Below, in pieces: positions 17,193 to 49,771 of a DNA stretch of 64,000 nt. The translations under genes and the position numbers were made by a program. The first letter of the stretch is position 1; each line of letters starts with the position of its first letter. The stretch spans positions 1,487,501 through 1,551,500 of the forward strand of contig NZ_CP101740.1 of assembly GCF_024496245.1 (NCBI RefSeq), written 5' to 3'. The notes below the pieces were generated by a model, which was not told the origin of the DNA, searched no databases, and saw only the letters and a program-made list of their open reading frames with translations. This DNA is from Sphingomonas qomolangmaensis. Its GTDB lineage: Bacteria; Pseudomonadota; Alphaproteobacteria; Sphingomonadales; Sphingomonadaceae.

Positions 17193-17211
17193 ACTTTCGG
17201 CCACTCAAGAA

Positions 17212-17243: not shown

Positions 17244-17364
17244 AATTGGCGGGTGCGCCTGAAGAAAACCGTCCCATCGCGGTGCGATACGGATCATTTC
17301 ATCGCATCGCGTCTTGGTTTAGGGCGGAGCGCCGCGCGGGTGCGGTTCGACGAGAAGGAACGGC

Positions 17365-17919: not shown

Positions 17920-17938
17920 ACGCTTCGAGGATAGAACC

Positions 17939-18199: not shown

Positions 18200-18305
18200 G
18201 CAACCGTCCACAGGTTTCTGGCCGTCCTCCCCGCAACCCGCTTGCGCGGGGGACGGCGGCGCGACACGATTTGCACCGGGCACCCGGGCCGTGCAAAGGA
18301 TGACC

Positions 18306-19606: not shown

Positions 19607-19671
19607 GGTCGACGGAACGCCGCTTGCCCCGACCCGTTGTCCGGTCAGACGGATTTGCAACGGAGGCACCC

Positions 19672-20271: not shown

Positions 20272-20279
20272 CGCTTGCC

Positions 20280-20301
20280 CCCTCCCGTTCGCGGGAGGGG
20301 A
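20280..20301. terminator. Bidirectional hairpin with TTCG tetraloop
   Basis: Nine-bp perfect stem (20280-20288 with 20293-20301) and a TTCG loop, one of the most stable RNA tetraloops. It lies exactly between the convergent hemerythrin and MarR genes, 8 bases from one stop and 1 base from the other. Confidence 0.7.
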
Positions 20302-20302
20302 T

Positions 20303-20806
20303 TTAGCGGCCGAGCATCGCGATGCGCGCGCGTTCCTCGTCGGGGATCAGCCCTTCGAGCACCGCCCAGAAGCCGCCGACCGCGCCCTGCCCCGCGCTGG
20401 CATAGGCCGCAGACAAGCGCTCGCGCAGTTGGTCGAACAACGCGGTCTCAAGCGCGCTACCCTCGGCGGTCAGCCGCAGCAGGCGCTGGCGGCGGTCACG
20501 ATCCCCGGGGCGCATCTCGACCAGCCCGCGTTCGGTGAGATCGCCGAGCACGCGGCCGAGCGACTGTTTGGTGATCGCCAGCAATGCCAGCAACTCGCTC
20601 ACCGTAAGCCCCGGCTGGCGCGCAATGAAGTACAACGCGCGGTGGTGCGCCCGCCCCAGCCCTTGCGCCGCCAACGCATCGTCGACCGAGCGCGTGAGGT
20701 GGCTATAGCCGAAATAGAGGAGCTCGATCCCCTTGCGGATTTCGGGTTCGCGCAGGAACAAGGGCGAGGCGGTACGCAGCGGATCGGGGATCGTTGGGCC
20801 AGCCAT
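20303..20806 (-). CDS. MarR family transcriptional regulator
   Basis: A 167-residue winged helix-turn-helix regulator: LTRSVDDALAAQGLGRAHHR, recognition region LTVSELLALLAITKQSLGRV and wing LVEMRPGDRDRRQRLLRLT. The start at 20806 gives the standard MarR length; the open frame upstream translates the antisense of the aminotransferase gene. It is divergent from that gene with a 75-base gap, so regulation of the aminotransferase and itself is plausible. Ligand unknown. Confidence 0.9.
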   Translation of the reverse strand: MAGPTIPDPLRTASPLFLREPEIRKGIELLYFGYSHLTRSVDDALAAQGLGRAHHRALYFIARQPGLTVSELLALLAITKQSLGRVLGDLTERGLVEMRPGDRDRRQRLLRLTAEGSALETALFDQLRERLSAAYASAGQGAVGGFWAVLEGLIPDEERARIAMLGR

Positions 20807-20881
20807 GTTGACCTGTTTTGGCAGCGCCCCTACCGTTCGGCAACCCTTGGCCATGGCGCTCCCATGGCGCTTTGACGCTGG

Positions 20882-21988
20882 ATGCCCCCGATGCTCGATA
20901 CCGCCACCCTGCCCTTCACGATCGAACCAAATGCCAATCCGGTCGCGGCGAGCGAGCGCGAGGCGCTGCTGGCGAATCCGGGCTTCGGGCGGGTGTTCAC
21001 CGATCATATGGCGATGATCCGCTGGAACACCGAGCAGGGCTGGCACGACGCGCGGATCTGCCCGCGCGCGCCGCTGCAGATGGATCCGGCATCGTCGGTG
21101 CTGCATTATGCCCAGGAGATTTTCGAAGGGCTCAAGGCCTATCGCACCGACGATGGCGGCGCGACCTTGTTCCGCCCCGATGCCAATGCGCGACGCTTCG
21201 CCGAATCGGCGCGGCGGATGGCGATGGCCGAATTGCCCGAGGCGCTGTTCCTCGAATCGATCCGCGCGCTGGTCCGTGCCGACCGCGCCTGGCTGCCGAG
21301 CATCGACGGCGGATCGCTGTACCTGCGCCCGTTCATGATCGCGAGCGAAGTGTTCCTGGGGGTGAAGCCCTCGGCCGAATATCTCTACATGGTCATCGCC
21401 TCGCCCGCGGGCGCGTATTTTAAGGGCGGCGCCCCCTCGATCACCGTGTGGGTGTCGGACGATTTCACCCGGGCCGCGCCCGGCGGCACCGGCGCTGCCA
21501 AGTGCGGCGGCAATTATGCCAGCGGGCTGCTCGCACAGGCCGAGGCGATCCGCGAGGAATGCGACCAGGTGGTGTTCCTCGACGCGGTCGAACGCCGCTA
21601 TGTCGAGGAACTGGGCGGCATGAACACCTTCTTCGTGATGGACGACGGCAGCCTGCAGACCCCGCCGCTGGGGGGAACGATCCTGCCCGGCATCACCCGC
21701 GATTCGATCCTGACGCTGGCGCGCGACGCCGGCATGACGGTGCGCGAGGCGCCGTATGCGATCGACCAATGGGAAGCCGATGCCGCCAGCGGCCGACTAC
21801 GCGAGAGCTTCGCCTGCGGCACCGCGGCGGTGGTGACGCCGATCGGCCGCGTGCGCGGCACGTCGCGCGATTTCCGCATCGGCAATGGCGGGCCGGGCGA
21901 GGTGACGACGCGGCTTCGCGCGCAACTGGTCGCGATCCAGCGCGGCCAGGCGCCCGATCCACACGGCTGGGTCGAATACCTGGCCTAA
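20882..21988 (+). CDS. ilvE: Branched-chain amino acid aminotransferase
   Basis: A 368-residue class IV PLP-dependent aminotransferase of the BCAT type, interconverting valine, leucine and isoleucine with their 2-oxo acids. Supporting motifs: LHYAQEIFEGLKAYR, the lysine region GAAKCGGNYASGL (Schiff-base lysine), YVEELGGMNTFFV and GTILPGITRDSIL. Length fits the long bacterial/eukaryotic-type BCAT. Start could be 20882 or three codons later (20891). Convergent or divergent partners: MarR upstream, tRNA-Gln downstream. Confidence 0.93.
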   Translation: MPPMLDTATLPFTIEPNANPVAASEREALLANPGFGRVFTDHMAMIRWNTEQGWHDARICPRAPLQMDPASSVLHYAQEIFEGLKAYRTDDGGATLFRPDANARRFAESARRMAMAELPEALFLESIRALVRADRAWLPSIDGGSLYLRPFMIASEVFLGVKPSAEYLYMVIASPAGAYFKGGAPSITVWVSDDFTRAAPGGTGAAKCGGNYASGLLAQAEAIREECDQVVFLDAVERRYVEELGGMNTFFVMDDGSLQTPPLGGTILPGITRDSILTLARDAGMTVREAPYAIDQWEADAASGRLRESFACGTAAVVTPIGRVRGTSRDFRIGNGGPGEVTTRLRAQLVAIQRGQAPDPHGWVEYLA

Positions 21989-22034
21989 AGCCCCTTCCCT
22001 AACCCGCGTGCGCGGTTATAAGCGCACGCCTTGC

Positions 22035-22109
22035 TGGGGCGTCGCCAAGTGGTAAGGCAGCGGCTTTTGATGCCGCCATGCGCAGGTTCGAACCCTGCCG
22101 CCCCAGCCA
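22035..22109 (+). tRNA. tRNA-Gln (anticodon TTG)
   Basis: Cloverleaf can be folded by eye: acceptor arms TGGGGCG (22035) and CGCCCCA (22099), anticodon stem GCGGC/GCCGC around the loop TTTTGAT with anticodon TTG at 22067-22069, T-arm GCAGG-TTCGAAC-CCTGC, discriminator G and encoded CCA. The 3' end serves as the integration site of the island that follows. Confidence 0.95.
22093..22109 (+). repeat. attL: 17-bp repeat in tRNA-Gln 3' end
   Basis: CCCTGCCGCCCCAGCCA, covering the 3' T-stem, acceptor strand and CCA of the tRNA. It is identical to 39797-39813. The first four downstream bases differ between the two copies before a shared TTTTC. Confidence 0.85.
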
Positions 22110-22211
22110 AATTTTCTGCTAAGTGCCTGATATAACTGGCTAACCCCGGTTCGGACGTCCCAGCGTGTGCATTCGACTGTGCCAATGGGCTGTCCGAGGA
22201 GATCATGTACC

Positions 22212-24140
22212 TTGGCCTCACTCCAGCATATTTATCGCCGCGGCCATATTTTCTGGTGGCGCAGAGTTCATTTTTCGTTCCATAATAAGCCTATTGATGT
22301 TCGCCTGTCGCTCGGAACCCCCGACCGGCTGCAGGCACGGAACCGGGGCGCGGCGTTGACCGCGTCCTATGATCGGGTGGTTATTATGCTGAACCAACGC
22401 ATGCGCGCCGAGCGCGACCTGACTGAGCGCGAGCTGCAGAAGATCGCCCGCGACATGTATGAGGCACGTCTCGCGGAGCTCTGCACGCAGCAACGTGCAG
22501 CGCCGGGCGATGCTGAGCTCATGTCTGCCGCCAACAATGCCTATGTCGATTACTTCGAACGGCTGGCCCGGATGGGCGGCCACCTCTCCTTCATGTCCGA
22601 CGAGGAGGACCGGCTGCGGGCTGAAGGCTGGGACGAGCGCCGGGTTGCCGACCTGCGCCAGACGATTGGGCTGCGCGAAGAGCGCGGGATCACGCCCATT
22701 CGACGAAGCGACATAGACTGGCATCTTGGGAAGGCTGGTCTTGAACCCGATGACTATCTTCGCTGGAAGGTCGAGCTGGCGCTCTACACCGCCTATCGGG
22801 ATGCGTACGTCGATGCCGACCGCCAGCTCCAATCCGGATCAGGCTTTCACGCAGTGGAAGCCCCTGAACCTCCCCCCACGCCGATCCCAAGCGGCGATAC
22901 GGAAGCGCTCGCCATTCCCGAACGCTGGCGCACATGCACGCCGACCCAAGCCGCCGAATGGATGATCGAGGAGACACCGCGGCTGTTGGATCACCGCCGG
23001 GATGGCAAGCGATCAAAAGACAGCGTCGGAGAGCAAACACTTCGGCAGATCCGCTGGGCAGCGACGCTGTTGGAGAAATCGCTGCCGCCAGGCACGCCTC
23101 TTTGGAAGGTGACCAAGAAGGAGATCATCGACCTCGATCGATGGTTCGATCAGCTTCCGGTGCATTTCGGTAAATCAATCCACGACAGGGATCCTGCGCG
23201 GTCGCTCGAAGCCGCCGCCGCTGACGCTGTCGAACGGATCGATACCGGCCACCTCGCGCCCGAAGACGTCGGCTTCTCGACGGGGACGACGAACAAGCAT
23301 TTCAACAAGCTTGGTCAAATCCATAAATTCATGCGCAATCAGGTCGACGTGGTCGCGCCTATCGACTTTGGTGACTTCACCCTGCCCATCGACGAGGACG
23401 AGCGCGAGGCCCGCAAGCGCTACACGCGCGAACAGGGCGAGGCGATCTTCCGGCTGGCGCTATGGACGGGATGCGTTGGAACGCGCGATCGGCTGCAGCC
23501 GGGCAACACCGTCATTCACGACGGGCTGTTTTTCGTGTTGCTGCTAGTCTGGTACACCGGGGCGCGGCGCGAAGAACTATGCAAGCTAATGCTCGACGAC
23601 ATCGAAGAGCGGCACGGCATCGCCTACATCCTGATCCGAGCAACCGAAACTGGCCGAATAAAGAACAAGTCGGCGCGCAGGGTCGTTGTGGTGGCGGACG
23701 AACTCGTCCGCCTCGGGTTCATTCGCTACGTCGAGGCGATGCGCCTTGCTGGCGAGACGCTGCTGTTCCCAGAGTTGATGCCGGGCGGTGATACGAAGCG
23801 GAAGTTGGGCGACGTTTTCTACAAGCTTTGGTGGATCTATCTGAAGCCGTTGGTGCCCGGCCTCGTTCGCGGTCAGGCTATGCACTCAGCGCGTCACATG
23901 GTGGCGGACGAACTGAAGGACCAGGAGGTCTTCATCGAGTTCCGCAACGATCACCTCGGTCATCGGGGTAAAGGCGAAGGCGAAACGCGTTATCCTTCAG
24001 CCGCTTCGCTCCAGAGGCTTCGAGAATTGGTGGCTAAAATTCCCGTCGTCACGTCCGGCATACCCGATCAGGAGTCGATCAACCTACTTCCCGTGAGTAT
24101 GCGCCAGGCGCGACCTACACGGCAAACGAGCGACCGGTAG
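22212..24140 (+). CDS. int: Tyrosine recombinase (integrase) of the island
   Basis: A long tyrosine site-specific recombinase of about 642 residues. The N-terminus (HIYRRGHIFWWRRVHF) is the type seen in long DUF6538-like phage/island integrases; a central arm and core-binding region follows. Catalytic residues: arginine in WYTGARREELCKL, the HxxR box in MHSARHMVADEL, the second histidine region NDHLGHRG and tyrosine in GETRYPSA. The start is uncertain: TTG 22212 follows AGGAG by about ten bases and begins right at the conserved N-terminus; ATG 22167 in frame would add 15 residues. The AGGAG is even better placed for ATG 22205, which opens a 26-codon out-of-frame peptide. Confidence 0.88.
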   Translation: MASLQHIYRRGHIFWWRRVHFSFHNKPIDVRLSLGTPDRLQARNRGAALTASYDRVVIMLNQRMRAERDLTERELQKIARDMYEARLAELCTQQRAAPGDAELMSAANNAYVDYFERLARMGGHLSFMSDEEDRLRAEGWDERRVADLRQTIGLREERGITPIRRSDIDWHLGKAGLEPDDYLRWKVELALYTAYRDAYVDADRQLQSGSGFHAVEAPEPPPTPIPSGDTEALAIPERWRTCTPTQAAEWMIEETPRLLDHRRDGKRSKDSVGEQTLRQIRWAATLLEKSLPPGTPLWKVTKKEIIDLDRWFDQLPVHFGKSIHDRDPARSLEAAAADAVERIDTGHLAPEDVGFSTGTTNKHFNKLGQIHKFMRNQVDVVAPIDFGDFTLPIDEDEREARKRYTREQGEAIFRLALWTGCVGTRDRLQPGNTVIHDGLFFVLLLVWYTGARREELCKLMLDDIEERHGIAYILIRATETGRIKNKSARRVVVVADELVRLGFIRYVEAMRLAGETLLFPELMPGGDTKRKLGDVFYKLWWIYLKPLVPGLVRGQAMHSARHMVADELKDQEVFIEFRNDHLGHRGKGEGETRYPSAASLQRLRELVAKIPVVTSGIPDQESINLLPVSMRQARPTRQTSDR

Positions 24141-24666: not shown

Positions 24667-25218
24667 ATGACGAAAGTGCTGAAAATGGGCCGAAAGACGC
24701 TTTGTGCGGTTTTCCTGCTTACAGTTCCCGCCTTGGTCGGCTGCTGTCTGACAGGCAGGCCTGTAGTAAGCGAAAATCAAGGCTGGCCCGATGCAGGTTG
24801 TCGCCGTCTTGGCGACGATTATAAAGTCGATCCCGTGCGAACAATTGATTCGGGATTGAAAATGTTCCGTGAAAACATGCTCCCACAGGCGCGAAATACC
24901 GGGCGTAGATTTCCCGGCTATTCGACGTGGATGACTGAGGTGGGCGAGGCTATACGGCGTCACGAAGAAACAGAAGCGACCGACGCAAGTTCAGCAGCCC
25001 AAGCTGAGTTTGACCAGTGGACGCCGAAATTTAACCGACCTCCGTTTAGTTTGGATCAGCCGCAGATACAAGATATGGAAAAGGTTGCGGCGATTAAAGC
25101 TCAAACCGAGTTCAGGCTGATGGCGAAGAGTCTGACGGGTAGGCTAAGGTGCCAAACCGACGATACGCGTGAGGCGGCGGCCAATCATTTTTACGCAAAC
25201 TATAAAATCGATGATTGA
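24667..25218 (+). CDS. Predicted lipoprotein/exported protein, island cargo, unknown
   Basis: A 183-residue protein. A signal region is visible (TLCAVFLLTVPALVGCC, lipobox-like LVGC), with a basic N-terminus TKVLKMGRK. The mature part is hydrophilic and mostly helical (DMEKVAAIKAQTEFRLMAKS) and has a few cysteines. Base composition is clearly less GC-rich than the chromosome outside the island, supporting transfer. I recognise no family. It is followed by an AT-rich gap and a larger lipoprotein gene in the same direction; the two might act together at the envelope. Confidence 0.6.
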   Translation: MTKVLKMGRKTLCAVFLLTVPALVGCCLTGRPVVSENQGWPDAGCRRLGDDYKVDPVRTIDSGLKMFRENMLPQARNTGRRFPGYSTWMTEVGEAIRRHEETEATDASSAAQAEFDQWTPKFNRPPFSLDQPQIQDMEKVAAIKAQTEFRLMAKSLTGRLRCQTDDTREAAANHFYANYKIDD

Positions 25219-25539: not shown

Positions 25540-27990
25540 ATGAAAAAGTCGTCTTACGTGCTTTCGGCGGGATTCAGCCTAACACTTCTCGGGGGGTGCG
25601 CCGGTGAACCCGCCTTTGAGAGAGGCATACAGGTCCAATGGGCGGACGACGTCGGTACAGTCGCTATATCCAAGCATGGTGATCCGATCGAGTGGGATGA
25701 GGTTGCGACGGATCTTCAGCCCAACTTCAAATTGGACAGCGCCACAGCACTCGCAAACGCGATGCCAATCACGCAGTCGTTCGACGAACGCCTTTTTGAT
25801 GCGCTAACTGCAAATGTTCAGGCCGGCCTACCGGGCGTCACCAGCCTGCGGACTACTAACGAAGTCACAGACGCGGAAACCGGCGAGATTGTAACAACGG
25901 TAGACAATACGCGGACACGGCAGACCGGGACCGTTCCCGCTCCCGCCGGACTTACTCCAACAGGCGCCGCCGCTCTCACTGCGCTCGCGAGCCCCACCTT
26001 CGGCGACGACCCGATGCTGCGCTACCTAGCAGCTACTGCCCTGCTGCAGGAGGTTGCGCTACTGAACAGGTACATAAAGGACCAGGTGCGCTGGCCGGGC
26101 TCGCAGGCGTTTGTCGTGCGCCTTCAACTCAACGTCGCGCCGAATGCAAGATCGATGCCGTACGACGTCGAGGCTGACATCACCATTCACTCGGAGGACG
26201 AGCAGAGCCGGGCTGGGCTGGCGCTACCAACCCAGTCGCTTGCTAGATCTCTTGAAAACGGGGCGACTCCGGGCATGCCTACGGCGGCCGCGGCTATCGC
26301 CGGCCGACAATCCGAATGCGCCGCTGGGAGTTATGACACCTTACAGGTGCTGCCAATGATTGTTACCGACAATTTAGAGGGCATGAAGGCGGCACGTTCG
26401 GCAGACAACGTCCGACAGCTCGCACTTTCTATGCTTGGCACTGCGGGCAATGTGGGGTTGGGCGGGCAGTTTGGCCGGACATCAGAGGCGCTCCGCCGCA
26501 GCGAGGGACGCGAAACCAACAGCCTTATGACTGTCGCCAAGCTCAGCGACGACACGGTTCGGGTGCGTCTCGGAGCGGTCCAGAGCCCGCGTTACGGCTA
26601 TGTTATGTCTGAGCGGAACCACTTCGTATCGCTCGTCGTAGTTGTTCGACCTTGCATCAACTCTAAAGGAACAGCCTTCACTGGCGACGGCGAGCGCAAT
26701 CTAACTGTGGTTTCGCGAACGAACTTCCGCGATGGCGCGACGGGCCGCTCCCTCCCGTACCGACCGGGAACCGCTCGGCTAATGGAACAGATCAGCCACA
26801 TCCAGGAGCAGTTCGTCGGTCAATTCAACTACCTTGAGCTCGCCCAAATGTACCAGTGGGTCACGAGTCAGAACCGCTCGAAGTTCTACGATTACGTGGT
26901 CGGCAAGCACTTGAGTGCTAGTATGTGTAAGCCCGGCAGGTTCAAGAAGCTATTCGGCGTACAGCGGGCGTACGCGCTGGATCAGGACGATTATATAAAG
27001 TTGCTGGAAGGGAAGGGCTACAGGCGAGGTGATGATGGAAAAGTGCTCGATGCGTCCGGAAGCGGCGTGGACCTACGGTTCGCTGCCTCAGACCCGATGT
27101 GCCTATCGCTGGCCCGGCTGCGCTACCAAATGGTAGCCGCCCCTCTCTGGACCGAACTCCAGAGTGTCAGGCCGACGGGTCAGTTTGCCTTTACAAACGT
27201 TCCTGTCAGGCTCAGGCAACGGAAGCCCGCGCTCCCGCCCAAGCAGCAAGTCCTAGTGAATCTAACAAGCGGGGATTCGACCGTTACCATTCCACTTGGA
27301 CAGGATATGCTCGAGTTCCGGGCGGCTCAGCTAATGCTCGTCGAAGGAAGTGGTCCCCCGATACCCGCATCCACCGCCACTATCGCGGCCAACGGGCGCT
27401 CTGTTACAGGGTCCTTCCAGCCGCTTGCGCGGTTTGGAATCAAGCCGACAGCGGACTCAGAGGCGACCGGCCAAGCTGGTGGGACTGCCTCCACAACCGC
27501 CGGAATCCAGCGTCTATACCAGTTAAAGCTTTCAATGACTTATCCGAACGGGCAATGTCCTGACGACAAAGCCATCAAGGACGGCGATGTCTGTGTACAG
27601 GAGTACCCTGTTCGCTTTTTCGACGCAACCAAGGCGTCTACTACGACTCCGTTCACCTTGGGGGCTACGGCCACGGGCATCGTTGCTGACCCGGCGAAAG
27701 GCTTGGGGAAACTCATCGTAGTTGTAGGGACGTCAAATGCCGCCGCGTCGGCGGACAAGCTCAAGCTCTCCGTTGAGGGCGCGCAGGTCAACACCGCCAC
27801 CGCAAGGGGTGGCTCAGCCCTTAAGCTAGATGGCAACGGATGGAAGGTAGCAGGAGCGGGCGAGATTGTCCTCGACCTTGAAAACCTGATCCCCAACACG
27901 GTTGTCAAAGTTACACTCAAAGATGGTCCCGCTACCGCAGGAACTGTTAGCACAAGCGTGATTTCGGCCGCGTCCAGCAAGGGTAGCTGA
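25540..27990 (+). CDS. Large lipoprotein of unknown function, island cargo
   Basis: An 816-residue predicted lipoprotein: KKSSYVLSAGFSLTLLGGCA carries a charged end, hydrophobic core and lipobox LGGC. The following 500 residues are mixed alpha/beta without a recognised motif. The last 300 residues look like successive beta-rich domains (strings such as QQVLVNLTSGDSTVTIPLG and GKLIVVVGTSNAA), with threonine/alanine-rich composition typical of surface or periplasmic proteins. The start is the first ATG after GGGGGTG. I find no enzyme signature. Its size and surface localisation suggest an envelope function or an anti-phage surface role, but this is speculation. Confidence 0.7.
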   Translation: MKKSSYVLSAGFSLTLLGGCAGEPAFERGIQVQWADDVGTVAISKHGDPIEWDEVATDLQPNFKLDSATALANAMPITQSFDERLFDALTANVQAGLPGVTSLRTTNEVTDAETGEIVTTVDNTRTRQTGTVPAPAGLTPTGAAALTALASPTFGDDPMLRYLAATALLQEVALLNRYIKDQVRWPGSQAFVVRLQLNVAPNARSMPYDVEADITIHSEDEQSRAGLALPTQSLARSLENGATPGMPTAAAAIAGRQSECAAGSYDTLQVLPMIVTDNLEGMKAARSADNVRQLALSMLGTAGNVGLGGQFGRTSEALRRSEGRETNSLMTVAKLSDDTVRVRLGAVQSPRYGYVMSERNHFVSLVVVVRPCINSKGTAFTGDGERNLTVVSRTNFRDGATGRSLPYRPGTARLMEQISHIQEQFVGQFNYLELAQMYQWVTSQNRSKFYDYVVGKHLSASMCKPGRFKKLFGVQRAYALDQDDYIKLLEGKGYRRGDDGKVLDASGSGVDLRFAASDPMCLSLARLRYQMVAAPLWTELQSVRPTGQFAFTNVPVRLRQRKPALPPKQQVLVNLTSGDSTVTIPLGQDMLEFRAAQLMLVEGSGPPIPASTATIAANGRSVTGSFQPLARFGIKPTADSEATGQAGGTASTTAGIQRLYQLKLSMTYPNGQCPDDKAIKDGDVCVQEYPVRFFDATKASTTTPFTLGATATGIVADPAKGLGKLIVVVGTSNAAASADKLKLSVEGAQVNTATARGGSALKLDGNGWKVAGAGEIVLDLENLIPNTVVKVTLKDGPATAGTVSTSVISAASSKGS

Positions 27991-28583: not shown

Positions 28584-29285
28584 ATGCGTAAATATCATGA
28601 TTTCCTGCTGCACTCGGCATCAGACCTCAACGCCTTTCTCGGCTGTGCACACGCGGCCGCGCTGAACCTGCGCAAGCTGCGCGATCCTGCGAGCCTCCCG
28701 GATCGGGCTACGGACGAGGAAGGGGCGAAGTTAATTCAGGACGCAGGGCACAAGCACGAGGCAGCCTATCTCGAGCATCTGAAGCAGTTGGGGGATGTGG
28801 CAGAGGTGACGGCCTCCGGCTCGCTCGAGCACCGCGCGACCGCGACTATGGTGGCGATGCGCGAGGGTTCCGAAATCGTCTATCAGGCAGCGTTTCTCGA
28901 TCAGCCCTGGCATGGCTTCGTGGATTTTCTGCGCCGAGTCGAAACACCTTCCGCGTTAGGCTCGTGGAGCTACGAGGCGGTCGACACCAAGCTGGCCCGG
29001 GCGGCCAAGGCCAGTCATGTTCTTCAGCTGGGCCTGTATTCGGATCTGATCGCCGAGGTCCAGGGTGCCCGACCACAGGCGATGCACATCGTGCTGGGCG
29101 ACGGAACGTGTGGCTGTTCGAGACCGCCGGCGAGTTACTATCGCTCCAGTCGACGACCGCGCGGCGTCGGCTCGACCCGCATATCTACGACTGGCCGGCG
29201 CACGATACGACCGATCCGATCGCCGATCTGCCCATTCTCGACTGGGAGTCCGGCAGCTGCGTGTCGGTGCGCGACGATGTCCTGA
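28584..29285 (+). pseudogene. RecB-like nuclease (TM0106-type) N-terminal fragment
   Basis: The first 170 residues match TM0106-type RecB-like PD-(D/E)xK nucleases: LLHSASDLNAFLGCAHAAAL, GHKHEAAYLEHL (conserved histidine), GFVDFLRRV (Asp), YEAVDTKLARAAKASH (E-x-D-x-K-like catalytic strand) and LQLGLYSDLI. The core motifs are therefore intact. After MHIVLGDGT (about 29,105) the reading frame degenerates into arginine/proline-rich text and stops at 29285, whereas family members continue for several hundred residues. Two other frames carry plausible continuations for a few codons (VWLFETA, then SYYRS), so a frameshift lies at about 29,105-29,150 and the rest of the gene is deleted. Its reading runs into the next, unrelated gene remnant. 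Confidence 0.65.
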
Positions 29286-31366
29286 CAGGGTTCGAGCATA
29301 TCTGTCTGCGCGTCGCCCCGCGGCTGCAGAAGCGTCCACGTCACAGCGTGACTGGGCTGGACCTCGCAGCAGACGGCTATGCCGTCCGCTACCTCGACCT
29401 GGACGCGCCGGAACCGGGGCAGGAGCCGACCGAGCGTTTCAATATGGTGTTGCTCGCTGTGGGATTTGGCCTCGAACCCGATGAGCCGGTCCAGAACATC
29501 CAGAGCGCGAGTTATTGGTCCGACGCCGGCGTGCCCGTCGCCGAATTTCAGGGGCGCCCGACTCCGCGCTTCTTTGTCAGCGGTGCCGGCGATGGTGGCT
29601 TGATCGACCTCGTTGCTGCCGGGGCAACAAATTTCGATCACGCTGGCATGATCGGCATGATCGCAAATCATCCGGGAATCGACGAGCTTTCCGCCGTACT
29701 GGCAGCGATCGACATCGAGGCTCGCACCGCCGACGCGGCAGGCGCGCGGTACGATTTCATGGCGGCGTATGACGCGCAATTATTCGCTCGGCTCAACGCG
29801 ATCGGGCTGGTCGCTGCCGTGACCCAACAACTGCGGCCCGGCGTCCGGCTGACATTGCAGACGCAGCGTGCCGAGATGTTCGAAGTCTCGACGTCGACCC
29901 TCAATCGTCTCGCCGCCTATCTGACTGTTAAGGCCTGCGATGCCGATGCACAGCGAAGCTTTCGTCATCTCCACTGCGACGCGGTGGTGCGAATCGATCC
30001 ACCCGACCCCGCCCACGAGCCAGCGGCACCATTCTGGCTCGACTGCGCAGGCGAGATGGTCGCCGCCGATTCCGTGATTGTGCGTCGCGGTCCTTTGCGC
30101 GCCGCGGTACGCGGTCCCTTCGAGCCGCATCTGGCCGGCCATGATGACGTACATAAGGAGTGGCTAGCTCGTCACGGGAATGCGACGCTGATCCCGAAAT
30201 TGTCGGGTCATGCTCGGACGCTGTTTCTGGAAGCGGCCCGCAAAGCCGGCATTCCGCTTGCGCCCAGATGGCAGCGGCACACCGAGCAACAACTGCCGAT
30301 CTCGATTCAGGTCCGGCGTAGTGCCGACCGCTTGCGCTGGTCCGGGGCCATTGCGGCCGAAGAGCTCGTGCGCGCATGGAGCGATGATCAGGCGTTTGAG
30401 ATCATCCTGCCCGACGGCCCCGATCAGTTCGGCGCGGCGGCCGGCGCGATCCTTCGGGTAGCGTGCCACAGCCGCGTCAGCCGACTGCATGCCACGCCAG
30501 CGTTGTGGACCCAACATGTCAGGGCGTTGAGCCTCGACTCCCTGCACGCCGAGGGTATGACGATGCCGACCATAACTGGCGGAAATCCCGGTGGTGCGGC
30601 ACAAAATCCGGTCGAGGTCGCCCCTGATATCTTGGCGCGGCGAATTCATCGCGCGCTCGACGCTTGGCTTCTCGATAAACTCAACGCGCACCTTCAGCCC
30701 TTCTTTGCCAGCAACGCCGACCCTGGCCGGCCGGTCGGACTGACCGTTGCGAACGATCTCCGCGCCGCTATGGCGGCCACCTGGGTCGATTGGCGGGCGT
30801 CGTTCGCCGATGACCCCGGACTACTCAACCATTTCTTGCGGCTGATGATTTGCGCGGTCGAAGACGGTGATAATCGCGATGCCGCACAGGTGCTGGTTGG
30901 GCCGACCAAAAGGAAGGAGATCATTCGCGGCACAGCGGTGTCGCTGGCGATCGCGGCTGCCTGGCAAACCACCTCCCCCAAGGGCGCTGGCCCGGGCAAC
31001 CTCATCCGCGAGCGTGACGGCGATAGTGCCTGGGCGGGTCACGGCTGTGCCGCTAACTTGATCAACGGGAACGACATGGCGCTGTGCGCAGCCTCCTATA
31101 TGTGGCAGACTCAGTTCGTCATCCTGATCGTCAAGGGCATGATCGAAGTTGCACGCGGGGCTGAACGTGCCTTTGCCCAGATCGACTCCGATCAGCCGGC
31201 GTTGAGCGAAACGGATGGTGCGGGTCCGGTGATCATGTCGATCAACCGCGATTTCTCGGACGCGGTCGCGGCTGGCCTTGGCGCTCTTCGCGACCTGCTG
31301 GCGGCGGTCGAGGCGCGGCATTTTGAGGTGTTGAACAAGGCGATCGAGAAAGGCGGCGCAGCATGA
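29162..31366 (+). pseudogene. N-terminally truncated flavoprotein-like protein, first member of SMC cassette
   Basis: About 735 residues of open frame. Text begins abruptly at RRRLDPHIYDWPAHD and continues LPILDWESGSC; VSGAGDGGLIDLVAAGA about 135 residues later is a glycine-rich nucleotide-binding turn like the second Rossmann motif of FAD/NAD(P)-binding proteins. The first Rossmann motif expected at an N-terminus is absent because the sequence upstream belongs to a RecB-like nuclease. The C-terminal half is a long unrecognised domain. Its stop overlaps the ATG of the next gene (ATGA), so it was the first gene of a coupled three-gene operon. It may still be made from an internal start; the frame itself is open from 28964, but its first 66 codons are the antisense-free shadow of the nuclease. 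Confidence 0.55.
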
Positions 31367-32055
31367 CCGACGGGGTGAAATTGTCTTCCAAACTGGTCGA
31401 CTTCACAGACCGTCTGCGCAAGGCAGCGAGTGGAGTTGGTCTCACGGTTTCGGACCGGCCGCAATTGGCCAGCTCGACCTTCAACGGCGGCTCGACCAAA
31501 TCGACCTTGCTCAGTCCAGCCGACTTGCCCGCCGAAAGCCATGCCGTCCGCATCGATCGCTTCAACATCGTCCTCGGCCTGTTGCCGGACATCGCAACCC
31601 TTGAAGCGGTGCGCGAGACTTTGCGGCGCTACCGCAACCAATGCGTCGTTGCGCGTTCCTATCTCGCCAGCAACGAAGCGCTTGACCTGCAGCTGATGTT
31701 GCTTGGTCCGCGTGCGAGCGAGCGGCAGGAAGCATGGCGAGCGCTCGCCCTCATGGTCGAGCGCGACGATCGCGTAGCCCGAAAACTGGCGTGGCTCCGT
31801 CCCGAGGATGACGACAGCGACGAGGCGAGCTTCGCCGACTTTCTCAAAAGAACGTTCCTCGCCCGCCCATGGGAAGTTGACAAGGATGATTTCGAGGACG
31901 CAGCGCTCGACGAATTGAGTGGCGGCGTGCCCAAACCGGGATTGCCGCGGACACTAGCCGAGGAATGGGAGCGGATCGCACTCGACGAGAAGAAGTCGCC
32001 GGATGACATCGTCATTGCGTTGGTGAAGGCCTGGGAACGGCGAGGTCAGGCATGA
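31363..32055 (+). CDS. Small middle component of an ABC-three-component-like system
   Basis: A 230-residue protein between the flavoprotein-like gene and the SMC-like ATPase, overlapping each by 4 bp (ATGA). The N-terminal part (KLVDFTDRLRKAASGVGLTV) and the sequence RYRNQCVVARSYLASNEALD look like the middle component 1 proteins of the predicted ABC-three-component (ABC-3C) conflict systems, which link an effector to a dedicated ATPase. This is recalled resemblance, not a profile search. A charged helical C-terminal part follows (LAEEWERIALDEKKSPDD). No catalytic motif is evident; an adaptor role fits. Confidence 0.65.
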   Translation: MTDGVKLSSKLVDFTDRLRKAASGVGLTVSDRPQLASSTFNGGSTKSTLLSPADLPAESHAVRIDRFNIVLGLLPDIATLEAVRETLRRYRNQCVVARSYLASNEALDLQLMLLGPRASERQEAWRALALMVERDDRVARKLAWLRPEDDDSDEASFADFLKRTFLARPWEVDKDDFEDAALDELSGGVPKPGLPRTLAEEWERIALDEKKSPDDIVIALVKAWERRGQA

Positions 32056-35000
32056 GCGATATTTTTCTGTCTCGCATCGGCACCCATGATTTCCGAACGT
32101 TCGGCGATTTCGAGATCGAGATACCGGCAGCGCCTGGCCTGGTGCTGCTCACCGGGACCAACGGTCTTGGAAAGAGCAGCTTTTTCGATGCGATCGAATG
32201 GGGTCTGACAAACACGATCCGGCGCTTCGAACCCTATGTCCAGAAGGGCAAGAAGAGGCTCGCCGAGAAGGACTATCTCACCCGTCGAGGCGCCGAGCCC
32301 GGTTCGCACCGTGTATCACTGACTTTTTCTGGCGAGGAACCGATCGTGCGCGCGGCAGGCACCGGCACGGCGACTGCCGACATTGTGGCTCGGCTCGCCC
32401 GGCCCGACCGTCGGGCGATCAATGATCTCGGCACCTATCTCGCCCTGACGCATTTCCTGGGACAGGCGGCGCAGCAACGGTTCACCAGTCGCGACCCGCG
32501 CGATCAGTGGCAGGCATTGAAGGGGCCGAGCGGCATCGATCGGCTGGAGCGAATTCGAGCTGGGCTGCGCGGGCGTCCGACGGTGACGGCATTCAACCGG
32601 CGTATAGAAACGCAGCAGACGGTGGTCACGACGCTCGAGCGACAGATTGCCGACTGGCAAGGCTGGCTGACGCGCCTCGAGCGGCTGCGTTCGGCCGCCC
32701 GCGCGACGGGCGCGCTGACGGCGGCCGAGGTCACCGAGCGGATCGACCAGCTGGAGACCGATCTGCCCGAGCTCATAACGGGACAGCCACTTGCGATCAC
32801 CGGGGAGGATGTCGGGCGACGGCTCGCAGCCCTGGGCGACCGGATCGGCGACGCGCTCCGCTTGATGGGCGAGCGCAAGGCAGGGCTCGAGGCTTTGGCG
32901 CCGCTCGCCGTGCAATATGCGATCAGCCAGGCGGAGAGCCGCCTCGATACGCCGGCACTCGTTCGATTGCGTGGCGAGGTTAGCGATGCGCAAGCGCGGC
33001 TCGGCCGGGCATTGCCGCTCGTCAGCACGGCAAATAACGCCGTGACCGCACAGCAGGCGGCGATCGCGACGATCGGCCACAATATTCAGGTGCTTGAGGC
33101 GGGCAGCACTGATCTCGCGCGCCGTCAGCAGCTCCTTGCGCTCATCGCCACCGACGCGGCGGATCGCGCGGCGCTGGTCGAGGCGATCGCGGCGAATCGG
33201 GCAACTATCCAGATAGCCGACGGCACGATCGGCAATCACGCAGAGGCGGCGGCGGAGGTGGCGCGCCTGCGCAGCCTCGCGGCATCCGCCCGGGCGCTCG
33301 ACGAAGCGATGGCGGATTATCTGAATCTGGAAGCGGAGTCCGCAAAAGCTTCGGCAGCGCTGGCGCAAGGCCGCGAGGTTGCCGGGCCTGTGACCGTCCA
33401 GATTGTCGCGCTCGAGACTCAATTGGCTGGGGTCGACCGCCGCATCGGCGATGCCGAGCGTGACCGTGCGGAGGCCGATCGGCATGCCACGGCTATCAGC
33501 GCGGCGCTGTCGCAGCTTGCTAGTCATCTTCACGCGAACGACACGGACTGCCCGGTCTGCAACACATCATTTGCGCCTGGCGTGCTTAAGGCGCTTGCCG
33601 ATGCCGCCGCGGTCGGGAGCGACGGTCGGCTCGCGCAGGCGGACGAAGTGGTTGAAGCACTGCGGGCAAACCGCAGTGACCTGACTAGCAAGATCGACGC
33701 GCTGAAGGCGCAGGTCGCAGTTGTCGACGAGCTCGTTCGCGCAGCCGATACGACAGCTCGTGCAGCGAGCGATGCACGGGAGGCGGTTGCCCTCTCGCTC
33801 GACGTGCCTGCCTACAGTGATCTCGCGCCGCTCGCCGCACGACGACGGAGCGATGCGGAGACCGCGCTGGCAACGGCGGAGGCGGCGCTCGATCTGATGG
33901 CCGCAAATGCCGCAGCGGCGAGCGAACAGCGCTCGGCGGCAGCCAACCGCCTCGACGAACTTATCGTGCGCGAAAGCCAGCTCGGCGCGCGCGTCGCGCA
34001 GTTCGAGAGTGAGGATGCCGCCTGCGCGGACCGGATTTCCGCGCGCAACCTGTCGAATGCGACCTTGGCCGATATCGAGGCACGGCTGACATCGGTACGC
34101 GGCGAGGCCGAAGCGGCGCGAGCGCGCCTCTCCGAGCTGGTCGAGGCGGCCAGCGCTACGGTGGCGGCGTCGCAGCGCGAACAGGCGGCGGTCGACACCG
34201 GGAAAGCGGCGCTCGCGGCGACGGAAGCGACGCGTGCGACTGCCGAACAGGGCGCGCGTCAAATTCAGCTGCGCTGGACACAGGCGGGGCTACCGGGCAT
34301 TCCTAGCCAGGCGGGCTATGATGAAGGGGTAGCGGCAGTCGATGCGACGCTCGTCGGCCTGCGCTCGCTTGCCGAGCGGCAGCTGATACTGGCGCGCGAC
34401 AATGAAGACGCATTGCTGCAGACCGAAATCGACGAGATCGTGTCCGCGTTGCGCCTGGCGGGTGGCGAAGAAAGTGCCGGCGACCCTACGGCTCACCTGG
34501 CCAACCTCAAGTCGAAGCTCGCCTCTGCCAAAGCCACAGTCAAGCTAACGACCGCGGCGCGTAATGCCGTCAAACGCTATTCAGAAGATCTGCAGGCGCA
34601 GGCCAACGACTTTTCTACACGTGTGCTCGACCCGCTCAACACGGTGATCGACGATTTCAACGAAGCGATGCTGAGCACTCCGGGCGAGAGCATCCAGTTC
34701 AGAGCCGATACCCGTGTAGACGCGACGACGTTCGGGATGGCGCTGCGCTACCGCGAGAAGGTCGAAAACGCGATCGAGGCGGTAAAGGATCTGCCGCCGC
34801 AGGTAGTGCTGAGCGAAGGTCAGCTCGCGGCCAATGGTTTCAGCATCCTTTGTGCGGCGAGCACCGCCTACCCCTGGTCGCGGTGGCGCGCGCTGCTGCT
34901 CGACGACCCGCTCCAGCATAATGACATCATCCACACCGCGGCGTTCGTCGATGTGATGCGCAATATGGTGGAAATGAACGGCTACCAGCTGATCATGTCG

Positions 35001-35186
35001 AGCCATGATCGCGGTGAAAGCGACTTCATCGCTCGCAAATTCGACGCGGCCGGGCTACCCTGTACGACGGTGTTGCTGACGGCACCGTCCGACAAGGGAG
35101 TCGTGTGGGTCGAACCCGAGCAAAATCCAGCCGCAAACCGTATATTGCGTCGAGATGCCGCCGCGCAAAGCGCAAGTAACGGCTGA
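32052..35186 (+). CDS. SMC/Rad50-like ATPase with zinc hook
   Basis: A 1044-residue ABC ATPase of the SMC/Rad50/SbcC type. The head has Walker A GTNGLGKSS at residues 35-43. Two long coiled-coil arms (about 180-490 and 510-860, rich in A/E/R heptads such as LVEAIAANRATIQ) flank a zinc hook CPVC at about 499-502. The C-terminal head carries the signature LSEGQ near 919, Walker B ALLLDDP near 946 and the switch MSSHDRGE. A dimer joined by zinc at the hook and ATP at the heads is expected, acting on DNA ends or topology. It is coupled to the middle component by overlap and is the energy-consuming part of the cassette. No signs of decay. Confidence 0.88.
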   Translation: MSDIFLSRIGTHDFRTFGDFEIEIPAAPGLVLLTGTNGLGKSSFFDAIEWGLTNTIRRFEPYVQKGKKRLAEKDYLTRRGAEPGSHRVSLTFSGEEPIVRAAGTGTATADIVARLARPDRRAINDLGTYLALTHFLGQAAQQRFTSRDPRDQWQALKGPSGIDRLERIRAGLRGRPTVTAFNRRIETQQTVVTTLERQIADWQGWLTRLERLRSAARATGALTAAEVTERIDQLETDLPELITGQPLAITGEDVGRRLAALGDRIGDALRLMGERKAGLEALAPLAVQYAISQAESRLDTPALVRLRGEVSDAQARLGRALPLVSTANNAVTAQQAAIATIGHNIQVLEAGSTDLARRQQLLALIATDAADRAALVEAIAANRATIQIADGTIGNHAEAAAEVARLRSLAASARALDEAMADYLNLEAESAKASAALAQGREVAGPVTVQIVALETQLAGVDRRIGDAERDRAEADRHATAISAALSQLASHLHANDTDCPVCNTSFAPGVLKALADAAAVGSDGRLAQADEVVEALRANRSDLTSKIDALKAQVAVVDELVRAADTTARAASDAREAVALSLDVPAYSDLAPLAARRRSDAETALATAEAALDLMAANAAAASEQRSAAANRLDELIVRESQLGARVAQFESEDAACADRISARNLSNATLADIEARLTSVRGEAEAARARLSELVEAASATVAASQREQAAVDTGKAALAATEATRATAEQGARQIQLRWTQAGLPGIPSQAGYDEGVAAVDATLVGLRSLAERQLILARDNEDALLQTEIDEIVSALRLAGGEESAGDPTAHLANLKSKLASAKATVKLTTAARNAVKRYSEDLQAQANDFSTRVLDPLNTVIDDFNEAMLSTPGESIQFRADTRVDATTFGMALRYREKVENAIEAVKDLPPQVVLSEGQLAANGFSILCAASTAYPWSRWRALLLDDPLQHNDIIHTAAFVDVMRNMVEMNGYQLIMSSHDRGESDFIARKFDAAGLPCTTVLLTAPSDKGVVWVEPEQNPAANRILRRDAAAQSASNG

Positions 35187-35576: not shown

Positions 35577-36711
35577 CTATGCCGGGTGGTCGACTACGGC
35601 CTGTCGCCAGCGATCGAGACTGGCCCCCGGCAACAACGCCTCGACCGGAGCGAGTTCGAAATGGGCGCTTTCGCCCGCACGGCGGAAGTCATGCGCTTGG
35701 ATGCCGGTCCAGAATAATGCGAGCGCCCGGTCCGCAGTGAACAGTGCCACACGCTCGTTGGGAAACAGCGCGAACAGGTTGATCAATATCTCTAGTGATC
35801 TCAGATCCGCGAGCGCGTTATAGGCGTCGCCGGCGCTGTAATCGGATCGGAACTTGAGCAATTTCTTCGCCGGGCTGCCGGAATTCGGCACGGCCACCGC
35901 ACTCAGCGCGGCGAGCACGACGAGCGAGTTGCGCGGCACCTGGTACCGGTCCGCGGCCTCCAGCAGCTTTTGCCACCGAGTATCAAGCAAGGCCCGGCTG
36001 GTCGGCGAAACGAGAGCCGGCGCGATATCAATGAGAAACACCTGCTTGCGGGCAAGTCCGCGACGCGTGTCCTCGATCAGCCCCAGCGCGCCGGCAATGC
36101 TTTGGTCGCCGATCGCGAGCGTGGCTTTGGGTAGCGCCTTGCCGATCAGTGCGGCCGCTTCCTCGAGCTGGGCCGCGAGCAGCGCGGGGCAGGGTTGCCG
36201 CGGCCATTGCCTTCCATGGCGAAGAGCAGCGGATTGATGCGGACGTCGACGTCGGCAAGCATGTCGAGAAAATCGCGCTCTTCCGCGACCACCGTGCCGC
36301 CCTCGTAGCGAGCCCTGATCTGCGAGACGGCGTTGCGGTCGAGAAGCACGGTTACCCCGGGCCGACTCACGGCAAGCCCGGAGGGCAACCAGCCGCCACG
36401 CGCAGACTCACCGTCATCGAGGACAAGACGCTCTCCAGGGTGGCATGGCCCTTGGCGATCTTGTCGATATCGACGCCGGGAATGTCGGTTTCGAGCACCC
36501 TTGCGTTATGTCAGTCGAGCGGGACCGTAACCGGCACATGCAGGCGGGCCTCGGCCAGTTGCCGGTAGCCGAGCGGCGGCAGGAACTCGATCCCGACGAA
36601 GCTGATCGACCGCGCGGGCTGGCCATCCTGTCCCTCAAGCTCCGTGAGCTTGATAACCCAGTCGCCGACCCCGGCGATGCGGGTCAGCCGCTGCTCGGTT
36701 GTCTCGGGCAC
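35577..36711 (-). pseudogene. Decayed PIN-like protein gene with stop and frameshifts
   Basis: Fragments in several frames of the minus strand read as one protein of about 380 residues. The first part (MPETTEQRLTRIAGVGDW to VTVPLD) stops at a TGA at 36511-36513, but the same frame continues with ARVLETDIPGVDIDKIAKG. A frameshift near 36,390 is needed to reach LPSGLAVSRPGVTVLLDRNA, and another near 36,200 to reach PALLAAQLEEAAALIGKAL and on to the end. The segments VTVLLDRNAVSQI and RVALFTADRALALFW, with acidic residues on strands, are reminiscent of PIN-like nucleases. Sequencing error could mimic this, but three lesions in one gene favour real decay. Confidence 0.65.
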
Positions 36712-36811: not shown

Positions 36812-38077
36812 TCATTGACCGGCTGCTCCCGCATCACCTGCTCCGCCGTCATTCAGGCGCGCCAGATACCTGTCGACGAGAAAGGCACGTGGCTCGACCG
36901 TGGCGCTGCCGCCAACAAAGGCCTTAGCCCATGCCTCCAGCTCGGTGACGAATCGCGCTTCGTCGGTGGCGTAATGGGCGAACGCGCTGAATCCCATGTA
37001 GTCGAGGATGAGGAGCGGCTCGCCGCGCGCGTGCGCTGCCCGCATCAGGTCGGCAACGCTCTCCGCCTGCGACGGAAAAATCTCCTTCACGATAGCGACG
37101 CTGATCAGCGGCCGCCCGGCGCGATGCAAATCGATATCCTCGCGGAGGACGGTGAGCAGGATGGGGTCGGCGGTCCCGGCATAGTTCAGCGCGCCCTTAC
37201 CCTGCGCCACCGCCTCGGCGATCTGGCTCTGGGACTTGCGCAATTTGCGATCGATGGTCCGCGCGAGGCTCTCGGCCGTATTCGGGCTGTCCTTGGCTTG
37301 GATCAGCAGGATGGCGCTTCCGGTCGCGGCGACGACATCGACGAACTCCTTGTCCGATCCGCGCTTGAACGGATTGAGAATGATCTGCTGGGGCGCCATG
37401 AAGCGCCGTAGCGCCTCGGCAATATCCCTTTCCTGGAAATAGCCGGGTCGCCGCGAGTCGCGCTCCAGCATCGAGATCGCATAGCCGTCCGAACCGACAT
37501 AGTTGTGCACGCCTTCGCGCACGTCGAGGATCGCGAGATCCTCGGGCCAGAGCGGCTCGGCGAAGCGGACGCGAATCGCGCGGGCATCGTCCTCGGAGGT
37601 GCGATGTCCGAACCAATGTTGCAGCCAATAGAGAATGTCGGTCCCGCTGGCGTGGCTTTGCGGAGGCAGACGCAGTTCCTCCTGCGTCTGCAGATGGCTG
37701 CCGGGATCTTCGACCGTGCAGCGATACGCCATCCGGTCGCGGCCGAGATCGTCAACGAAATAGACATCGATTTCGGGCGCCAGCATCATTCCGACCAAGG
37801 CGAGCGAGGTATCGTCGTCACCGAACAGCGGTGTGCGGACGACAAGCGGCTCGTCGGCATCGTCGAAGAAAGCAGAGACGAAGCCGAAGGACAGGCCATC
37901 TTTCGCTCCAAACGGCACCACATAGACCGCGAAACCACGATGTTGGCGGATCGCGAGCAGGGCCTCCTTGGAGAGCTTCACCGCCAGCGACAATCTGCCA
38001 TTCGGGTAGATTGGTACGAGGCCGCCGGGCAATACGCGCAACGCGGCGGAAATCTGCGGGAAGTCGATCGCCAGCAT
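36812..38077 (-). CDS. Nuclease-like protein of unknown family (possible PD-(D/E)xK)
   Basis: A 421-residue cytoplasmic protein. The N-terminal 220 residues form a beta-rich region without a known motif (LVPIYPNGRLSLAVKLSKEA). At about 245-275 the text EFVDVVAATGSAILLIQAKD resembles the catalytic strand pair of a PD-(D/E)xK fold, with Asp and a Q-x-K in place of E-x-K, as in some Mrr-like and VRR-type nucleases. The C-terminal part is helical. AAGGCG lies eight bases before the ATG at 38077. It is between the REase-TOPRIM gene and the decayed PIN-like gene on the same strand, suggesting one operon of nucleic-acid enzymes. Function is a suggestion only. Confidence 0.6.
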   Translation of the reverse strand: MLAIDFPQISAALRVLPGGLVPIYPNGRLSLAVKLSKEALLAIRQHRGFAVYVVPFGAKDGLSFGFVSAFFDDADEPLVVRTPLFGDDDTSLALVGMMLAPEIDVYFVDDLGRDRMAYRCTVEDPGSHLQTQEELRLPPQSHASGTDILYWLQHWFGHRTSEDDARAIRVRFAEPLWPEDLAILDVREGVHNYVGSDGYAISMLERDSRRPGYFQERDIAEALRRFMAPQQIILNPFKRGSDKEFVDVVAATGSAILLIQAKDSPNTAESLARTIDRKLRKSQSQIAEAVAQGKGALNYAGTADPILLTVLREDIDLHRAGRPLISVAIVKEIFPSQAESVADLMRAAHARGEPLLILDYMGFSAFAHYATDEARFVTELEAWAKAFVGGSATVEPRAFLVDRYLARLNDGGAGDAGAAGQ

Positions 38078-38198
38078 CAGCTGACGCCTTGCCTGGCGCA
38101 AGCGACCTTGAGCTTCGGCGGTGCCCAGGCCGGCCGAAAGTTTACCGCCATCAACGCCGTGCCGCCATGCTTGGGTCCGGCACGATTGGCCCTGCCGA

Positions 38199-39299
38199 TC
38201 ATCCTTTCCCCCTGGCGACGGTGCCGCGCATCCAGTCCATGAATTTTCCGAAATCTCGGTTCTGCGACATAAGCCGTTCGATATCGGCGTTGCGGGCGAC
38301 GCGGCGGGCGGCTTTCATTTTGCTGCCCGTGGGCGGCACAAGATTGATATAATCGACATCGCAGGCGTTCTCGAGAACGTCCTCCAGGCTCGGTGTCAGG
38401 ACAAGTAAATGCCCTCCCATCGTGGAAAGCGTGTCGTGTACCTCCGCGAGGCGCTCCATTGGCATGTCGCTCTCGATGACTGCAGCGAGCCCTGGCACGC
38501 CGGCGGCATGGAGCTGTCGCAAAAGGCTCGCCACGTTGAGCTGTCCGCCAGCTGGCCAGACGCGGGTCGCCGCGGCGATACCGGCATCGACGCGGCCAAA
38601 CAGGATCTGCAATGCTTCTTGGTCTGCGGCGCCCTCGACGATGATATTGGCGAGACCCGTCCTGAACGATGCCGCGTTTCCGACTGGTACCGATGTTGCC
38701 TTGGCTGCTGCCGCCGCCGCGTCGGGCCCGGCGCTGAGCGGCAGAAACGGCTGGCCCTCCTCGGCCGCGTAGCGCAGCTTCTCTCGTAAGGCGGCGATGA
38801 ACGTCAGATGGCCTTGGGCAACGAGTTGGAAGTCGCTGCCATTGAACAGGATCAGGTTGATCTCCTTGCCGAACTTGAGCGCGTCGACGGCGTCCGGCGA
38901 GAAGCCGGACATCGAGACAAACACGCCGATGGTGCCGACGAGCTTGCCATCGACCTTGCCCTTGAAGGCATAGAAGTCGGACGCCGGAACCGGCTCGGCC
39001 TTCCATTTCGCCTCAAGCAGGAAGGTTCGTTCCGCGAACAGGAACGACCCGTCGATTTCCTCTCCGCTGGGGCGAATATGAGTTTTGGGTTCCAACCCTT
39101 CGGCCAACAGGATACGGGAGATGATCCGCTCGAGCGCAAAACCACGGCGCTGGTACCAGCCCTTTGGAACCGGATCGGGAGGTGTCAGCCAGTATTCAAA
39201 GCTGTCCTTGTCGTGCACGTCGCGTTCTGGCCCTTGTTCCCGTCCGAGCCTAAGCGCGTCGCCTCGCGAAAAACAGGGGAATCGCGCTGGCGCGCTCAA
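38199..39299 (-). CDS. Restriction endonuclease-like / TOPRIM fusion protein
   Basis: A 366-residue protein with two parts. Residues 48-140 have an Mrr-like PD-(D/E)xK domain: RRGFALERIISRILLAEGL, IRPSGEEIDGSFLF (Asp at 83) and RTFLLEAKW (E-x-K at 96-98), then VGTIGVFVSMSGFS. Residues 215-320 look like a TOPRIM domain: NIIVEGAADQEALQILF (Glu 222) and AAVIESDMP (Asp 278). Both catalytic cores look intact. This pairing suggests site recognition plus cleavage of DNA in a defence system. The start is unsure because the first 40 residues have no parallels; GTG at about codon 28 is an alternative. It is the first gene of the minus-strand group next to attR. Confidence 0.75.
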   Translation of the reverse strand: MSAPARFPCFSRGDALRLGREQGPERDVHDKDSFEYWLTPPDPVPKGWYQRRGFALERIISRILLAEGLEPKTHIRPSGEEIDGSFLFAERTFLLEAKWKAEPVPASDFYAFKGKVDGKLVGTIGVFVSMSGFSPDAVDALKFGKEINLILFNGSDFQLVAQGHLTFIAALREKLRYAAEEGQPFLPLSAGPDAAAAAAKATSVPVGNAASFRTGLANIIVEGAADQEALQILFGRVDAGIAAATRVWPAGGQLNVASLLRQLHAAGVPGLAAVIESDMPMERLAEVHDTLSTMGGHLLVLTPSLEDVLENACDVDYINLVPPTGSKMKAARRVARNADIERLMSQNRDFGKFMDWMRGTVARGKG

Positions 39300-39796: not shown

Positions 39797-39813
39797 CCCT
39801 GCCGCCCCAGCCA
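39797..39813 (+). repeat. attR: 17-bp copy of the tRNA-Gln 3' end
   Basis: Identical to 22093-22109. Directly before it TGGCTGGGG (39787-39795) is the inverted complement of CCCCAGCCA at 39805-39813, so a hairpin surrounds the core. The right boundary of the island. Confidence 0.85.
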
Positions 39814-49740: not shown

Positions 49741-49771
49741 TGGGGGGGGCGACAGACGACTTTAAATTTAC

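Follow-up and report, generated by a model that had tools for sequence, protein, structure and literature searches.

A probably decayed Lamassu operon with a beheaded flavoprotein effector gene in Sphingomonas qomolangmaensis

The closest described counterparts of the locus reported here are the Lamassu type II/ABC-three-component (ABC-3C) systems. Passages of PMC10586767 describe LmuB as the likely sensor of aberrant DNA and LmuA as an effector with varied heads, among them PD-(D/E)XK nucleases and, in the list given in section 9, a "double-Rossmann dehydrogenase"; all components are reported there to be essential wherever tested. For the Cap4 type, an addendum in PMC12409362 states that activated LmuA is released and forms a tetramer. 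This work concerns a three-gene operon, lmuA-lmuC-lmuB, within 64,000 nucleotides of Sphingomonas qomolangmaensis (contig NZ_CP101740.1, positions 1,487,501 to 1,551,500; this whole stretch is referred to here as the window). Its three-part plan is also that of Vibrio cholerae DdmABC, which differs, according to section 13 of PMC12409362, in having a Cap4 nuclease as the effector head and DUF6521 in the middle component. We estimate a probability of roughly 80% that the window holds a recently decayed Lamassu locus, with lmuA beheaded behind an out-of-frame piece of a nuclease gene, with lmuB and lmuC whole, and likely dead as a defense.

Judging from profile matches, the operon is a member of the already known Lamassu/ABC-3C family, since Pfam and PADLOC assign all three genes to it. 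The three consecutive plus-strand open reading frames (ORFs), each overlapping the next by 4 bp (Table 1), match Pfam CTD2, the C-terminal domain 2 of ABC-three-component systems (LmuA; 271 bits, cut-off of 25), MComp1 (LmuC; 46.8 bits, cut-off of 27.3), and AAA_23 (LmuB; 43 bits, cut-off of 27). Against PADLOC, LmuA scored 918 bits, LmuC 302 bits, and LmuB 1214 bits. LmuB carries a Walker A motif (GTNGLGKS, residue 35), a zinc-hook motif (CPVC, residue 500), an ABC signature (LSEGQ, residue 920), and a Walker B stretch (LLLDDP, residue 948). In a sequence search of solved structures, LmuB gave weak matches to SMC/Rad50 proteins (best E value, 0.004); neither LmuC nor the nearest LmuA relative gave anything better than an E value of 0.47. 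As such, the window operon shares with Lamassu type II/ABC-3C systems the effector-middle component-ABC ATPase order, the CTD2, MComp1, and LmuB families, a middle component adjoining lmuB, an effector bearing CTD2, and an ATPase with Walker A, signature, Walker B, and zinc-hook motifs. It differs in its beheaded effector, which lacks a complete N-terminal enzymatic domain.

An earlier note on this DNA, made from the sequence alone, had described three genes with 4-bp overlaps, a 230-residue middle protein, and an SMC/Rad50-like ATPase with Walker A, CPVC hook, LSEGQ, and Walker B, laid out as in ABC-three-component systems. All of this holds, and the MComp1 match over its cut-off places the middle protein among the ABC-3C middle components. 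The note's description of the system as undescribed has to be withdrawn: Pfam, PADLOC, and plasmid annotation name all three genes, and the effector list cited above already contains the double-Rossmann type. Two plasmid-borne homologue trios are annotated as "ABC-three component system protein," "middle component 1," and "AAA family ATPase." Two departures concern LmuB. The window protein has 1044 residues versus the ∼650 residues quoted for LmuB in PMC10586767, and its Walker B, which reads LLLDDPLQH in 23 of 23 LmuB sequences including the window's, is not the Glu-to-Gln form said there to be general; that change is a reported tendency rather than a defining Lamassu feature.

The effector gene is what sets the window copy apart. 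Its nearest relative, P0001, is an intact LmuA of 853 residues that is 92% identical to the window's, and its predicted fold resembles two-dinucleotide-domain flavoproteins (YpdA, thioredoxin reductase, and flavin monooxygenase), in agreement with the flavin/NAD-binding-like first component that the earlier note had proposed. In the alignment, homology of the window LmuA begins abruptly at NVWLFETAG, whose first codon, at 29105, corresponds to P0001 residue 97/98. Residues 1 to ∼97 of P0001 are missing, including the first GxGxxG motif; of the two dinucleotide-binding domains with glycine-rich motifs predicted for P0001, the window LmuA keeps the second motif only. Relatives at 90 to 92% identity reach ∼97 residues further N-terminally. 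Matches to the whole relative start at ∼29093 to 29105, DNA homology to a congeneric copy (L051) starts at 29099, and the PADLOC LmuA profile is matched from position 77 in the window versus position 2 in P0001. The LmuA frame is open upstream of ∼29099 to 29105, yet without homology there. A whole first gene starting at ∼29162, as the earlier note had it, was not confirmed: that start falls inside the truncated coding region. Searching the genome with P0001 recovered residues 95 to 853 only, at a single place, with no second match to the head. The lmuA product listed for this genome is a 436-residue protein (P0081) that begins with an internal ATG at 30056; at the break itself, we saw no clear start codon accompanied by a ribosome-binding site. 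Because the first ∼97 LmuA residues and the first GxGxxG motif are gone, we file the locus as a decayed, nonworking member of the family. The earlier note overlooked both the loss of the head and the position of the remnant, out of frame behind part of a nuclease gene.

Further close counterparts are flavoprotein-type Lamassu operons from Rhizobiales and others (such as L003, from a Bradyrhizobium sp., L004, and L046; PADLOC PDLC03858), presumably the subtype that goes by the name "Lamassu-Fmo." Over the shared part, the window LmuA is 77% identical to that of L003; these three loci differ from the window in that the LmuA head is present and lmuA is in one frame. Disulfide-reductase chemistry was considered for the effector and rejected as unlikely despite the fold shared with such enzymes, since no CxxC is common to >40 of 80 relatives.

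The sequence directly ahead of the break is the 5' part of a gene for a TM0106-type RecB-like nuclease. The 174 residues encoded there are 36 to 51% identical to three genomic relatives, which are longer, with open frames of 1127 codons in a congener and of 1139 and 601 codons within the same order. The fragment matches positions 3 to 156 of the 462 positions of TIGR03491 at 77.9 bits, below the family cut-off of 97.45, and so does not amount to a full-length TM0106 match. The homology of the nuclease gene ends, and that of lmuA starts, at the break, which indicates that both genes are truncated at the same point. The two lie in different reading frames, both of which are open over 28601 to 29285. 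The fragment retains D114, E131, DTK134-136, Q148, and Y152, so that the break falls directly behind the PD-(D/E)XK core, and it is without the Cys cluster that most of ten aligned relatives (up to 80% identity) have past the break. The likeliest cause, we infer, is a deletion that fused the upstream nuclease gene to lmuA, at the cost of the end of the nuclease gene and the beginning of lmuA. We rejected the idea that a TM0106 gene regularly accompanies lmuA, as the fragment was unmatched in the 25 lmuA loci from other genomes (L002 to L026). Elsewhere in the same genome, a separate 764-residue ORF with its own start (L035:790-3084) partially matches TIGR03491 (positions 194 to 281); by eye, it looks like another RecB-like nuclease and not the missing end of the fragment.

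These 25 loci came from a search of genome contigs with LmuA; three (L002, L014, and L023), in which the contig breaks off within the operon, were left out of the counts. The order lmuA-lmuC-lmuB is present in 21 of the 22 fully visible loci, which settles in the affirmative whether the three genes co-occur elsewhere. The exception, L022, from a gammaproteobacterial metagenome-assembled genome, has a deletion that removed lmuC and joined remnants of lmuA and lmuB (L022:6662-9368). An unbroken frame was seen for lmuB in 21 of 22 loci (with ORF length as the criterion in L015 and L024, since blastp reached just the end of the gene there) and for lmuA in 19, the exceptions being L009, L022, and L024 (lmuA is also broken in the left-out L023). 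There is a hint here that breakage affects effector genes more readily than sensor genes (3 versus 1 of 22), but the counts are low, and sequencing errors may account for some of the breaks. In none of the 25 loci is the lmuA head missing. Among 23 LmuB sequences including the window's, CPVC is found in all and LSEGQ in 22, and Walker A reads GTNGLGKS throughout except in L013 (GANGLGKS) and the truncated L022. On the Rhizobium jaguaris plasmid pRCCGE525a (L045:5675-8172), lmuA is split near residues 126 to 137, near the flavin-binding head, into two annotated coding sequences. As a separate observation, TIR, SIR2, and TIR genes directly follow lmuA-lmuC-lmuB on the Agrobacterium fabrum plasmid pAt3 (L046:12261-14262).

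Headless homologues are also found in the protein list. Ten of 120 listed homologues fail a pattern for the first motif, and seven of these (the window's own included) are without the head region; the others are P0044, which begins at the motif, P0016, whose normal motif the pattern missed, and P0063, in which the head is present and the motif shortened. Of the six foreign headless entries, five lie on contigs of 1.4 to 11.5 kb and may owe their missing heads to contig ends or gene calling; the sixth, P0095, comes from a 103-kb contig. A search of 61 genomes in the genus for CTD2 gave three with the domain, and the two besides the window's own genome hold LmuA-like genes in one frame of 838 and 849 codons, the second being distant (32% identity over 21 to 377). 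LmuA itself matched three of 61 relatives at an E value of 0.001, namely, its own genome and, weakly, G034 (E value, 2e-13; 31% over 2 to 268) and G008 (E value, 4e-4). At class level, only 1 of 385 genomes, again its own, was matched at 1e-20. Similar DNA on plasmids was limited to one record covering 5% of the query, and LmuA had no match in phage records at 1e-5.

Several observations weigh against decay. An internal start is possible, for instance at the P0081 start codon, and an in-frame GTG at 29261 has GGAG upstream; the 753 remaining lmuA codons contain no stop; and the ratio of nonsynonymous to synonymous substitution rates (dN/dS) of the remnant versus five relatives is 0.08 to 0.12, so that selection on the remnant is possible. 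An assembly error at the junction is also possible. Across lmuA, lmuC, and lmuB, dN/dS versus the five relatives is 0.08 to 0.15, similar to the 0.03 to 0.14 among those relatives themselves; this shows past purifying selection. A recent break would give the same low values, and since most dS values exceed 1, dN/dS does not date it.

Similar evidence bears on an unlikely alternative, in which a headless complex of the CTD2 remnant, LmuC, and LmuB is retained for a use of its own, perhaps to block DNA ends by binding them or to serve as a decoy. The whole lmuC and lmuB, the stop-free remnant, and the six further headless entries, including P0095 on its long contig, agree with such retention; the short contigs of the other five and the reported essentiality of all components (passages of PMC10586767) argue against it. 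Taken one step further, headless Lamassu might be a stable state in which the killing head has been shed and the LmuB-LmuC sensor, with its CTD2 dock, obstructs or tags the ends of foreign DNA without killing the cell; we regard this as a long shot.

It is likewise unlikely that the RecB-like head has replaced the flavoprotein head, the two being made as one protein by frameshifting or the frame difference being a sequencing error. Such an effector swap would suit the position of the break just behind the nuclease core, the two open frames, and the known variety of Lamassu heads, PD-(D/E)XK nucleases included. Against it, the larger share of the flavoprotein domain would persist as an incomplete central portion of the protein, and the fragment lacks the Cys cluster found behind the core in relatives; inspection by eye revealed no slippery site, and no lmuA locus among L002 to L026 matched the fragment. 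The structure model of the 174 residues is of low confidence (predicted local distance difference test score [pLDDT] of 69), and a Foldseek search with this weak model found no Protein Data Bank match at an E value of 0.001.

The assembly error conceded above would mean that two unrelated places were joined and that the real genome has an intact lmuA. We consider this very improbable: the genome is one contig of 99.75% completeness, neither the lmuA head nor the nuclease fragment was matched a second time within it, and the other partial TIGR03491 match belongs to the 764-residue ORF, by eye a separate gene. The operon layout alone would suit an ABC-3C system that is intact, undescribed, and equipped with a flavin effector of a new kind, but this reading is ruled out for practical purposes by the Pfam and PADLOC assignments, which place the three proteins in existing families at high scores, and by the truncated effector.

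A recently decayed locus is thus the reading that we prefer, and family knowledge suggests what was lost. Lamassu is predicted to defend against phages and plasmids. Together with LmuC, LmuB would detect DNA ends or otherwise aberrant DNA while keeping LmuA in an inactive state; detection would free LmuA, which would then assemble. In intact relatives of the window operon, LmuA with flavin adenine dinucleotide (FAD) may oxidize NAD(P)H, leading to arrest or death of the infected cell, as the fold would suggest. In the window copy, the first dinucleotide-binding unit, the predicted FAD holder, is gone. Because of this loss and because no clear start preceded by a ribosome-binding site is seen at the break, the gene would yield at most a C-terminal docking piece incapable of flavin chemistry; LmuB and LmuC would still be made, without a working flavoprotein.

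The operon sits on an integrated island. Window positions 16442 to 22116 align at 95.2%, and those from 39797 on at 95.3%, to a congener whose genome is one contig (G010); since the two alignments meet in G010, with 24 overlapping bases, 17.7 kb is absent from G010, which represents the empty site. The island starts at the end of a tRNA-Gln gene and is bounded by an exact 17-bp direct repeat, CCCTGCCGCCCCAGCCA. The integrase-like ORF beside the tRNA scores 23.3 bits (E value, 6e-05) against Pfam Phage_integrase, below the cut-off of 27.1. From the empty site, the tRNA-Gln end, the repeats, and the integrase-like ORF together, we conclude that the operon is island cargo.

Table 1. Coordinates of the operon, the adjoining nuclease fragment, and the island boundaries in the window
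Feature	Position	Strand	Basis
5' part (174 codons) of TM0106-type RecB-like nuclease gene; frame continues without homology to 29285	28584..29105	+	TIGR03491
Beheaded lmuA, matching P0001 from residue 97/98 to 853, CTD2 kept	29105..31366	+	Alignment, PADLOC LmuA, Pfam CTD2
lmuC, middle component 1, 230 residues, whole	31363..32055	+	Pfam MComp1; PADLOC LmuC, residues 1-229 of 230
lmuB, Rad50/SMC-like ABC ATPase with zinc-hook motif, 1044 residues, whole	32052..35186	+	PADLOC LmuB, residues 1-1038; motifs
tRNA-Gln (TTG anticodon), island integration site	22035..22109	+	ARAGORN; same tRNA at G010 empty site
Left 17-bp direct repeat (att-like), tRNA 3' end	22093..22109	+	Exact repeat of 39797-39813
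Integrase-like ORF, 657 residues from first GTG, true start uncertain	22167..24140	+	Pfam Phage_integrase; position beside tRNA
Right 17-bp direct repeat (att-like), island end	39797..39813	+	Exact repeat; G010 alignment resumes at 39797

Other ORFs of the island were also noted. On the minus strand, a 366-residue ORF (38199 to 39299) joins an Mrr_cat restriction-endonuclease half (24.8 bits, over the cut-off) to a weak OLD-like TOPRIM half (15.2 bits, below the cut-off). Beside it, a 429-residue ORF (36812 to 38101, minus strand) has an IQAKDS stretch that by eye resembles a nuclease motif; it matched no Pfam or NCBIfam family and reached PADLOC only at an E value of 0.075. Two further short minus-strand ORFs (35577 to 36041 and 36146 to 36388) look by eye like the two parts of one broken PIN-like protein, without a Pfam match. 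Two plus-strand ORFs (24667 to 25218 and 25540 to 27990) have lipoprotein-like starts by eye and no Pfam match over the cut-off; the latter, of 816 residues, is present in 1 of 37 genomes of the genus (its own). Beyond the island, a caspase-like ORF (49772 to 51661, minus strand; PADLOC, 30.5 bits) lies inside a low-GC stretch (∼49750 to 52423) that has no alignment of >150 bases to the fetched part of G010.

For the family, the result removes a false lead, as the trio is Lamassu and not a new system. A catalogue of profile hits would likely count the locus as an active Lamassu, because the lmuA remnant scores as highly as it does, though the listed product is the 436-residue P0081. The locus offers a natural case of a suicide-type system with a broken effector gene and whole sensor genes, and as such it bears on the contested report, told in section 13 of PMC12409362, that truncated DdmABC variants retain antiphage activity.
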